Shown: positions 54,918-59,658 of the stretch, in pieces
How the letters are laid out: each line of letters begins with the position of its first letter
Position numbering within the stretch: the stretch's first letter is position 1
Source: Streptomyces sp. GSL17-111
GTDB lineage: Bacteria; Actinomycetota; Actinomycetes; Streptomycetales; Streptomycetaceae
Direction of reading: 5' to 3'
NCBI RefSeq assembly: GCF_037911585.1
Contig: NZ_JBAJNS010000001.1
Coordinates: 62,001-126,000 of the forward strand
Length of the DNA: 64,000 nt
The notes under the pieces: generated by a model
What the model was told of the DNA's origin: nothing
Database searches by the model: none
Seen by the model: the letters and a program-made list of their open reading frames with translations, nothing else
Position numbers and translations under genes: made by a program

Positions 54918-55358
54918 GTTCTCAGGCCACCTATCTCTTCTGCCTCAGCGTCCACGGACGACCTCTCCGGGGCGCAGAGGAAAGGATCACCGGTGGGCGG
55001 CCCCTGGGGAAAGCCGGGCGTGTCGGCCGGCGAGCCGGTCCCCCGTTCCCCGGGCCGACCGTCGATGACGCACGCGCCCCCTTGCCGCCGACCACCGGCA
55101 CGCAGTGAGCATGGTAACCGAGGGTGATCACCGGAGCGGAGTGCCCGTACGCCGGGCCGGGGGCGGGCCGCCCGAGACGGGCCGTGCACCGATCGGTCCC
55201 CCGAGCGGCGAGACGGCGCTGCCGCACGAGTCTTGCCCATTGGTATGTACCAATGCAATTCTGCTGGTGCAGCTCTATCCGAACTCCCTTGCTTCGAAAG
55301 GGTGTTATCCGGACCACAGGGCCTCCCCACGGCCCGACGAACGAGAGTGAGCCCCCAC
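54918..55358. other. spacer between the HipA-like kinase and the LPMO
   Basis: About 440 bases without a gene. A perfect GGTGATCACC palindrome lies at 55123-55132, the DasR-like palindrome at 55238-55255, and a CCCTT/AAGGG repeat around TTCGAA at 55286-55302. The region should contain both divergent promoters. Short frames here overlap regulatory sequence and lack ribosome-binding sites. Confidence 0.6.
55238..55255. promoter_or_regulatory. DasR (dre)-like palindrome upstream of the LPMO gene
   Basis: CATTGGTA-TG-TACCAATG is a perfect 18-base inverted repeat 103 bases before the LPMO start. It keeps the TGGT-N4-ACCA spacing of DasR sites, which control chitin and N-acetylglucosamine genes in Streptomyces. 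The central bases and flanks differ from the consensus, so binding by DasR or a related HutC regulator is inferred. Confidence 0.6.
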
Positions 55359-56240
55359 ATGGCTTCAGCCCGGCGCCGCATCGCCGCAGCCTCCACCGTC
55401 CTGTCCGCCGCGACCCTCCTGTCGCTGACGCCTTCCCCCGCGAGCGCCCACGGCTCCGTCTTCGACCCGGTCAGCCGGGTGAGCGCCTGCTACGCCGAAG
55501 GGCCGGAGACCCCGAAGTCCCAGGTCTGCAAGGATCTGATCGCCGACTCGGGGACCCAGCCGCTCTACGACTGGAACGAGGTGAACATCGCCAACGCCGC
55601 GGGGCGGCACCAGGAGATCATTCCCGATGGAAAGCTCTGCTCCGCGGGCCGCGAGAAGTACCGCGCCCTGGACTGGGCCAGGACCGACTGGCCGACCACC
55701 ACGGTGGCCGCCGGCTCCTACGACTTCAACGTGCGGATCACCGCCCCCCACCTGGGCACGATGACGATGTACATCACCAAGGAGGGCTTCGACCCGACGA
55801 AGCCGCTGAAGTGGTCGGACCTGGACCCGACGCCGGTGGGCACGCACCCCACGAAGCGCACCACTGACAACGGCTACTACCGGTTCACCGGCGACCTCCC
55901 CGCCCGTACGGGCCGTCACATCATCTACAAGGTCTGGCAGCGCCACGACAGCCCCGAGGCGTTCTACGGCTGCTCCGACGTCGTCTTCGGGTCGGCGGGA
56001 GCCGCCGAGGCCGAGGCACCGACGGAGACCGAGATCAAGGAGGGCGCGGCCCACTCGACCGTGAGCCACCACGGGCACGGTGGCGACGAGCACAGGCCGA
56101 CGATGGCCGCCACCTCGGCGCAGAGTGCCACCTCCCTGCCGTCGGCCAACGTGGCCTGGGGGGCGAGTGCCGGCCTGTTCGCCGTGAGCGCCCTGTTCTT
56201 CGGCCTCGCTCGCCGCAGGGCGGGCCGTCAGTCCGGCTGA
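55359..56240 (+). CDS. membrane-anchored lytic polysaccharide monooxygenase (AA10)
   Basis: A 293-residue copper enzyme that oxidatively cleaves chitin or cellulose outside the cell. A signal peptide of 30 residues ends at SASA, so mature His1 comes from HGSVFDP. The second histidine-brace residue is in RITAPHLGTM, and the axial Phe region is EAFYGCSDVVF. A Ser/Thr/His-rich linker leads to a C-terminal hydrophobic helix and basic tail (FFGLARRRAGRQ), so the enzyme should stay on the surface. No LPxTG sorting motif is seen. Confidence 0.9.
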   Translation: MASARRRIAAASTVLSAATLLSLTPSPASAHGSVFDPVSRVSACYAEGPETPKSQVCKDLIADSGTQPLYDWNEVNIANAAGRHQEIIPDGKLCSAGREKYRALDWARTDWPTTTVAAGSYDFNVRITAPHLGTMTMYITKEGFDPTKPLKWSDLDPTPVGTHPTKRTTDNGYYRFTGDLPARTGRHIIYKVWQRHDSPEAFYGCSDVVFGSAGAAEAEAPTETEIKEGAAHSTVSHHGHGGDEHRPTMAATSAQSATSLPSANVAWGASAGLFAVSALFFGLARRRAGRQSG

Positions 56241-56624: not shown

Positions 56625-58337
56625 ATGGCAGGAGCGAAGACGCAGAGCCTGCGGAGGGTGGCCTCGGCGGTGGCCTCGGGTGCTGATCCCCGGCAGGCGG
56701 CCGAAGAGGAAGCGCTGCGACGCACCGGGCGGTCGGCCGGTCGGCCGCAGAACCGGGGACGGGCCGGCCAGGAGCCGGGGAACGCCGACGAGGAGTCGTC
56801 CGTGCCGGAGGAAGGGGGCATGGACCCCGCCGACTTTCCGGCCGCGAGAGAACAGGGCGGCTCCATCGCCACGGTGATGAGGCAGAAGACCGTCTCCCTC
56901 GACGAGGCCGGCGAGGCTCTCAACCGAAGCGAACAGCAGCGTGAGGGTGGCGACCAGGTCCATGCGATCTGCCCGATGGTGCTCCCGAAGGGCCGCTCGT
57001 TCCTGAGCATGCTTCCGGTGTTGTCCCTGCTCATCCTGGGCGCTGTGGGTACTGCGGTCGTGTCCGCGATGGACGACTCCCCGCTGACCAATCCGCTGTT
57101 CGGCGTGCACTACTGGGTCATCTCCGTGGCCGCGGTCGCCTTCGTGTGGTGGCGGCAGGGCATGGTGATGGTTCCGGACGGCTGCCAGGCACTGATCACA
57201 CGCTTCGGGAAGCTGGAGAAGGTCGTCGGCCCCGGCCGGGTGATCCTGATCAGCCCGTGGAAGCGGGTCTCGTACATCCTCAACACCACGCGGGAGTACC
57301 CGTTCAACGCGCCGGTGCGCGAGGCGCCGACCAAGGGCGGCGTGAAGGCCTCGATCGACCTGTTCATCCAGTTCCGGATCAGCGACGCGACGGAGTTCGT
57401 CTACACGCTGGGCGCGGTCCGCGGCTTCGAGGAGAAGCTGAGCAACGCGGTGAGCGAGACGATCCGCAGCCTCATCTACGAACAGGAGGCCGCCGGGATC
57501 TACGACCTGGTCGGCGAGGACACCGGCCGGCTCCTGGAACAGCTCAACCAGCAGTTCCGGCCCGCCGTCGAGCTGACCAACGCCAACATCACGCACGCGG
57601 AGCCGTCCGACCGCAACTACCGGATGGACCTGGCCGCCCCGGAGACGGTGCGGATGGCGAAGGAGGCGTACACCCACGAGTACGCGCTGATGCTCCGCAA
57701 GGAGCAGGACGAGGGCGACCTGAGCAGGGAGCTGGCGACCAGTCACGAGACGCTCTCCGCGATCCACGCCGACATCGCCCAGTACCAGGCCCAGATGGAC
57801 ACCGCCGTGGAACGCGAGACCAACCGCGCCCAGGCCCTCGCCCGCCAGCGCTACGTGCAGGCGGAATCGGAGGCGAAGGCCAACGCGGCGCTACTGGAGG
57901 CCCAGGCCCTCGACATCCGCGCGGTCACCGCCGCCGAGGCTCCGGAGATCCTCGAGTACCGCTACCAGCAGCAGATCCTCGACGCCCTTGAGCGGATCGC
58001 CGAACACCTGCCGCGCCTCGTGCGCATCGGCGGCACGGGGGAAGGCGACGGCGCCGCCGGCGTGGACTTCCTCCAGCTGGCCCGGGAGCTGGTCGGCGAG
58101 CGCGGCGAGGAGCTGTTCAGCGAGTCGGACATGACCGCCATGCGCGGGCAGCTCACCGCCATCGGCGAACGCATCACCGGACGCGAGGACGAGATCGTGG
58201 CGCTGCTCCGGGCCGAGCGGCCCACCGTGCCGTCGACCGGGAGCGGATCGCCGAAGGGCTCCTCGGCCGGCCAGGAGACCGCCGAACAGGCGACGGCGTC
58301 CGAGGTTCCCGAGTCCACCGAGGAGGCCGGTCAGTGA
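56625..58337 (+). CDS. SPFH (band 7) domain membrane protein A
   Basis: A 570-residue protein with a disordered, charged N-terminal region (1-120), two transmembrane helices (about 127-150 and 165-185), an SPFH domain from about 190 (VPDGCQALITRFGKLEKVVG), then an Ala/Glu-rich coiled coil (about 360-440) and an acidic C-terminal tail. Bacterial SPFH proteins build membrane scaffolds or assist membrane proteases. A strong AAGGAGG fixes ATG 56625. The GTG of a second SPFH gene overlaps its stop, so the two form an operon. Confidence 0.88.
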   Translation: MAGAKTQSLRRVASAVASGADPRQAAEEEALRRTGRSAGRPQNRGRAGQEPGNADEESSVPEEGGMDPADFPAAREQGGSIATVMRQKTVSLDEAGEALNRSEQQREGGDQVHAICPMVLPKGRSFLSMLPVLSLLILGAVGTAVVSAMDDSPLTNPLFGVHYWVISVAAVAFVWWRQGMVMVPDGCQALITRFGKLEKVVGPGRVILISPWKRVSYILNTTREYPFNAPVREAPTKGGVKASIDLFIQFRISDATEFVYTLGAVRGFEEKLSNAVSETIRSLIYEQEAAGIYDLVGEDTGRLLEQLNQQFRPAVELTNANITHAEPSDRNYRMDLAAPETVRMAKEAYTHEYALMLRKEQDEGDLSRELATSHETLSAIHADIAQYQAQMDTAVERETNRAQALARQRYVQAESEAKANAALLEAQALDIRAVTAAEAPEILEYRYQQQILDALERIAEHLPRLVRIGGTGEGDGAAGVDFLQLARELVGERGEELFSESDMTAMRGQLTAIGERITGREDEIVALLRAERPTVPSTGSGSPKGSSAGQETAEQATASEVPESTEEAGQ

Positions 58338-59658
58338 GTACCGCACGTGTCAACCGCAAGTCGGTCATCTCCGAGGCGGTCGCACCCTGGAGCGACATCG
58401 CCCAGCTGCTGCGCGGCGGCGAGGCGGGCACGCTGGTTCCCGTCATCATCCCCCGCCACCGGCGCAGGCTGTGGTGGATGCTGCCCCTGTGGCTGAGCCT
58501 GTTCGCGCTGCTCGCCGGTGTGACGCTGTCGCTGCGGGAGACGGACTCCGACAGCGCGGCGGACCTCGCGTACGGGGCACTCGCCGGCCTCGCCTACGGC
58601 GTCGGCGCTCTGCTCCTGATCGCCGGCGTTCTGTGGTGGTGGCGCTCCTCGATCGTCGAGATCGAACAGGTACGAACGGTGTCCTGACCCGCTACGGCGC
58701 GGTCACCCGCACCCTGGACGCGGGCCGCCACTACCTCTGGCACCCCTGGTCAAGGGTGGACTTCGTGGTCGACACGGCCACCGAGATCCCGTACTCCGCC
58801 CCGGTGATGGCCTGCCCGACGCAGGAGAACGTCCCGCTGCGGTCGATCGAGTTCTTCCTGAAGTTCCGCATCACGGACGCGGTCCGGTTCGTCCGCACGA
58901 TCGGCGCGGGCAACTTCGACCTGGTCCTCTCCAGCGCCGTCCAGGACGCCATCCGCCAGCGCGCCCGCAAGATGCGCACCGAGCGGGCGTACGACCTGCG
59001 CGGCTCGGACGTGGCCGACATGCAGGAGCTGCTCAACCGCCAGCTGGAGCGCTACGGGGTACGCATCACCGGCTCCAACATCCCGGACGTCCAGCTGCCG
59101 ACGCAGTACCAGCAGCACCTGGCCACCAGGGAGCGGGTCGCCAAGGAGCGTACGGCGTACGAACAGGAGTGGGGGCTGACCCGCAAGCGCCGTATCGACA
59201 GCCTCGGCATGGAGATCGAGCGGGCCAAGAAGGTGCGCGACGCGCGCGTCGTCGAGGTGAAGGCCGCCCTCAACAACGCCCGCGAACAGGTGGCCCAGCT
59301 GCTGGAGGAGCAGGAGACCAACGCCCAGCGGGTCCGCTTCGAGATCGAGACACGCGGTCGCAGCGGCCTGATCTCCGCCGAGAACGAGGCCCGCGCCCAG
59401 CGCGCCCTCGCCAGGGCCTACCGTGACAACCGCGCCGTCCTGCAGTACGAGCTGGCCCGCCGCCGCCTCGAAGTGGGCGCGGAACTGGCGTCGAAGGCAC
59501 CGCAGGCCGTGGTCGTACGCACCGACGGCGGCAGCGGTGACACCTCGGCGCTCTCGACGCTGCTCGCCGCACAGCTGCTGCCGCGGATGACGGAGCCGCC
59601 CACGGCGCCGACACGGTACTTCGGGAGTGAAGCCCAGGACGGGGGGACCGACGCCTGA
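58334..59658 (+). pseudogene. SPFH (band 7) protein B, split by a one-base frameshift
   Basis: The gene is in two frames. Codons from GTG 58334 give an N-terminal region, two membrane helices and a segment ending VEIEQ, then a stop at 58685. The -1 frame continues from 58669 as GTNGVLTRYGAVTRTLDAGR and the full SPFH domain to 59658. If one G were added near 58669 it would encode about 441 residues parallel to protein A. No slippery heptamer is visible. The cause may be a sequencing error or a real mutation. AGGAGG at 58321-58326 supports the start. Confidence 0.8.

Follow-up and report, generated by a model that had tools for sequence, protein, structure and literature searches.

A private one-base frameshift in the second gene of an SPFH gene pair of Streptomyces sp. 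GSL17-111

The gene pair and the lesion in its second member

The window analyzed here, a stretch of 64,000 nucleotides of the Streptomyces sp. GSL17-111 genome (contig NZ_JBAJNS010000001.1, positions 62,001 to 126,000), carries two adjacent genes for paralogous SPFH proteins on its forward strand. The first gene of the pair, SPFH1 (56625-58337, + strand), is intact and codes for a 570-aa protein with two predicted membrane helices and a Band_7 domain (E 2.4e-16; 60.7 bits against a cut-off of 23.6), 95% identical to its S. chumphonensis counterpart. The TGA stop codon of SPFH1 overlaps the GTG start codon of the second gene, SPFH2, in the sequence GTGA (58334-58337, + strand), and 33 of 34 orthologous SPFH1-SPFH2 pairs share an RTGA stop/start overlap; judging from this arrangement, the two genes are presumably translationally coupled. 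Upstream of SPFH1, at 55347-56240, lies a gene for an LPMO_10 lytic polysaccharide monooxygenase (E 2e-58); none of the relatives included in the comparison of flanks has this gene next to the pair.

SPFH2 is split between two reading frames. The first frame (58334-58687, + strand) codes for 117 amino acids and ends in ...SSIVEIEQ-VRTVS followed by a stop codon, the last five residues being out of frame; a Pfam domain search finds no Band_7 domain (PF01145) in this ORF. The remainder of the gene (58669-59658, + strand) lies in the -1 frame, where 329 codons and a stop, beginning with GTNGVLTRYG and open to 59658, encode the SPFH domain and a long coiled coil, with Band_7 scoring 80.8 bits (E 1.7e-22, cut-off 23.6). 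The two halves share 94% and 95% identity with a single uninterrupted protein of S. chumphonensis and match positions 2-113 and 112-434 of the 442-position family profile. Because both resemble one whole protein so closely, chance can be excluded as the source of the split. The preliminary description had proposed that a one-base loss divides an SPFH gene where VEIEQ should continue into GTNGVLTRYG, and its coordinates are exact. The lesion lies at 58669-58670 (+ strand), where a run of two G stands in place of the three G of the orthologues and disrupts the codon for residue 113, an invariant glycine; this follows from the S. chumphonensis alignment and from 80 orthologue loci, all of them intact. 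Restoring one base at 58669, which had been predicted to yield about 441 codons, joins the halves into a protein of 441 residues, as long as the unbroken orthologues of S. chumphonensis, S. gossypii and S. sp. 549. The upstream paralogue, also as proposed, is continuous at the matching position, where SPFH1 reads VMVPDGCQALITRFG, and the glycine at the lesion is invariant in alignments of 34 SPFH2 orthologues and of SPFH1 paralogues as well. No backup copy of SPFH2 was found in the genome: the family profile matches the two halves and SPFH1 only, and the other Band_7 genes of the genome fall below its threshold. SPFH2 is thus one gene with a private single-base frameshift, otherwise conserved, which makes it an ordinary case and not a new mechanism, and the locus should be annotated as one frameshifted SPFH2 gene rather than as two proteins.

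Distribution of the gene and functional readings of the split

In genomes of GTDB r220, the SPFH2 junction was found in one open frame at every one of 80 orthologue loci retrieved from other species, with the codons CAG-GGN (Gln-Gly) at nearly all of them. The gene is present in 49 of 393 sampled Streptomyces genomes, and its halves are in one frame in all of these except the GSL17-111 genome and a rearranged remnant in another genome; in a class-level sample it is present in 27 of 296 genomes and split in GSL17-111 only. The closest genome compared, S. chumphonensis KK1-2, shares 94-95% DNA identity, is collinear at the locus and has SPFH2 intact. One apparent natural split, in S. speibonae (L116), was rejected since it is a draft assembly with a run of N. 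The remnant (L080:2883-3765, minus strand, genome G351) consists of the 3' part of SPFH2 without SPFH1, starts almost exactly at the same Glu-Gln-Gly junction and adjoins a transporter-like gene; its sequence marks it as an apparent natural wreck of the SPFH locus.

The two genes keep close company. SPFH1 and SPFH2 occur together in 48 genomes of the genus sample, in which the SPFH2 remnant stands alone in one genome and an SPFH1 fragment in one, and in the class sample all 27 genomes with SPFH2 have both. The pair itself is patchy, being present in about 12% of the sampled Streptomyces and also in Actinoplanes and other actinomycetes. Comparison of flanks across species revealed no neighbors common to the pair beyond S. 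chumphonensis, and by this gene order SPFH1-SPFH2 appears to be a self-contained two-gene cassette without fixed neighbors. No dedicated study of the pair was found in the literature searched.

It is conceivable that the sequence as it stands yields full-length SPFH2 by programmed or otherwise productive -1 frameshifting, since the required shift is indeed -1 and the frames share a long overlap. A slippery-site scan of 58334-58687, however, finds no 0-frame heptamer of the type X XXY YYZ, and the one relaxed look-alike, at 58435, is weak and far upstream of the junction. The 80 bases downstream fold no better than mononucleotide shuffles (z -0.4 and -1.1), and no orthologue has a shifted frame at the junction, all 80 loci being single-frame there. 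With the slippery-site scan, the folding and the conservation all negative, programmed frameshifting was rejected, in agreement with the preliminary description, which had noted the lack of a slippery heptamer and of a strong hairpin; we regard a productive shift as highly unlikely.

Equally improbable, in our view, is that the two-helix fragment has been retained because it poisons or modulates the SPFH1 scaffold, or that the halves act as separate proteins. The fragment does contain both predicted membrane helices of the subunit, and the coupled start at the SPFH1 stop codon is kept, but such a fragment is kept in no other genome examined and it stops at the first SPFH strands. Near the junction, in turn, the 3' part lacks a convincing start of its own: the GTG codons upstream would add a nonsense leader, and those downstream cut into the domain. 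The orthologue alignment suggested by the preliminary description was carried out and uncovered natural encoding as two proteins at none of the 80 loci; with zero split orthologues, natural two-gene encoding was rejected. Should the deletion be real, the product would be a two-helix anchor without the SPFH domain, as the preliminary description had suspected and as is predicted by the structural model of an intact orthologue, in which the stop falls at the first SPFH strands. This 117-aa product would most likely be inert or unstable. Poisoning or modulation of the scaffold, as envisaged in the preliminary description, is possible but speculative, and no finding of the analysis supports it. 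That a real deletion has been kept and has turned SPFH2 into a short, co-translated two-helix partner that caps or changes the SPFH1 scaffold is the least credible of these proposals, with hardly any weight in our estimate, and even taken jointly the functional readings of the split have only a slim chance of being right.

Sequencing error or recent mutation

The age of the break can be judged from the constraint on the two halves. In the comparison with S. chumphonensis, dN/dS (NG86) comes to about 0.18 for the second half, 0.19 for SPFH1 and 0.42 for the first half, and the value for the first half is likewise raised, 0.3 to 0.4, between species in which the gene is intact. Polarized changes in the second half amount to 8 synonymous and 4 non-synonymous on the branch of GSL17-111 and to 15 and 4 on the sister branch, with no clear difference between the two. 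The S. chumphonensis alignment reveals no further lesion in the conserved body of SPFH2. An old pseudogene was therefore rejected on the grounds of the single lesion and the low second-half dN/dS, and because the second half is constrained and carries no second lesion, the break must be either very recent or an artefact of the assembly.

We consider the second possibility, a one-base error left in the G run at 58669-58670 by sequencing or assembly, with the gene probably intact in the organism, to be the leading one, at a probability of roughly one in two. It is supported by the single open frame at all of the orthologue loci and by the occurrence of just one split among the 27 gene-bearing genomes of the class sample, as well as by the normal constraint on the second half. 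The GSL17-111 assembly is essentially one 6-Mb contig, a shape typical of long-read assembly, and its size suggests that the genome was sequenced with long reads. Residual indels, mostly in homopolymers, are known in long-read-only assemblies (PMC8812927, PMC12007338), and no Streptomyces-specific paper on indel errors was found in the literature searched. On the other hand, the run comprises just three G, which is short for a typical homopolymer error, and the use of long reads is itself deduced from the 6-Mb contig.

A two-way comparison of frameshifts with S. chumphonensis, covering about 590 genes and about 585 kb of coding DNA in three chromosome regions, bears on the same question. The gene model used in it was trained on conserved genes; a cruder codon model had picked antisense shadow ORFs and produced false splits. 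After inspection, three single-base frameshifts were found in the GSL17-111 assembly and zero in S. chumphonensis. The three broken genes are SPFH2 (one G lost), an acetoacetate-decarboxylase-like gene (one A gained) and a DUF5753/HTH regulator (one C lost). The acetoacetate-decarboxylase-like gene (C1:129315, L184), which lies some 3.3 kb beyond the window on the right, has its extra A at about codon 77 and is whole in S. chumphonensis. In the regulator (C1:2958010, L205) the loss of a single base, as compared with S. chumphonensis, shifts the frame of the C-terminal part. Three more apparent splits (at 96.2 kb and 181.9 kb of the joined stretch and at C1:4.874 Mb) were rejected as they looked like over-long N-termini or 5' flanks. 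The excess is not significant: under equal natural rates three to zero arises one time in eight, and for this reason it only leans towards error. Moreover, all three broken genes look dispensable, as the targets of real losses would.

The latter observation points to the principal competitor of a sequencing error, a genuine and very recent null mutation in the strain or species, in which the ribosome stops at 58687, SPFH1 is left without a partner and the locus is starting to decay. We hold this to be a serious possibility, somewhat short of an even chance. SPFH2 is an accessory gene, as its presence in 49 of 393 Streptomyces genomes indicates, and its loss would be tolerated for that reason; the other two frameshifted genes of the genome are likewise of accessory types, and the L080 remnant provides a natural wreck of the same locus in another genome. 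The lack of a second lesion and of any sign of relaxation speaks against a null, although relaxed constraint is not predicted for a recent one. In addition, the break is absent from every other genome compared, and the corresponding genes of S. chumphonensis are free of comparable lesions. The balance between error and real mutation is thus tilted slightly towards error, three cases being too few to decide, and the lesion in SPFH2 is, by inference, somewhat more likely to be technical than biological. A real deletion would make the strain a natural SPFH2 null with an intact SPFH1, useful for asking whether the two proteins function solely as a hetero-oligomer.

The intact protein and its relation to known systems

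If the gene is intact, as a sequencing error would imply, SPFH2 would be an ordinary 441-aa subunit in which a membrane hairpin of two helices is followed by an SPFH domain and a coiled coil some 130 residues long. The stop/start overlap would tie its synthesis to that of SPFH1, and the two proteins may co-assemble into a hetero-oligomeric membrane ring or cage. The unbroken S. chumphonensis protein was modeled with AF2 (pLDDT 75.6), the result replacing a model built from close orthologues only (pLDDT 51). Besides an SPFH domain, the AF2 model predicts membrane helices at residues 49-69 and 75-105 and a helix some 130 residues long at 257-388. The best matches of this model among solved structures are prohibitin, stomatin, HflK/C, QmcA, Erlin and flotillin (Z 12 to 14.6). 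A Band_7 score over the cut-off and a predicted SPFH fold followed by a long coiled-coil helix place SPFH2 in the SPFH/Band_7 superfamily. By sequence, the closest solved relative is an archaeal stomatin (E 2.9e-7), none being close. Identity with HflK (TIGR01933) was rejected, the scores being 24.2 and 24.4 bits against an equivalog cut-off of 159.4, as was identity with HflC (TIGR01932; 17.9 bits against 134.4).

The known SPFH complexes HflK/C, flotillin, Erlin and prohibitin are built from pairs of paralogues (PMC11260169, PMC12624060), and by analogy SPFH1 and SPFH2 probably form a hetero-oligomeric membrane scaffold, a ring or cage of the HflK/C, prohibitin or flotillin kind. Like HflK/HflC, prohibitin PHB1/2, Erlin1/2 and flotillin 1/2, SPFH1 and SPFH2 are two paralogous SPFH proteins, and in this comparison their genes are adjacent, overlapping and nearly always found together. 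Unlike in those systems, two predicted membrane helices precede the SPFH domain, and unlike HflK/HflC the pair falls far under the curated cut-offs, its oligomer being a prediction. The lesion has its own counterparts in single-base assembly indels and recent frameshift pseudogenes: as in these, the SPFH2 indel is private to one assembly and the gene is otherwise conserved, and with two further one-base cases in the same genome, nothing sets SPFH2 apart from them.
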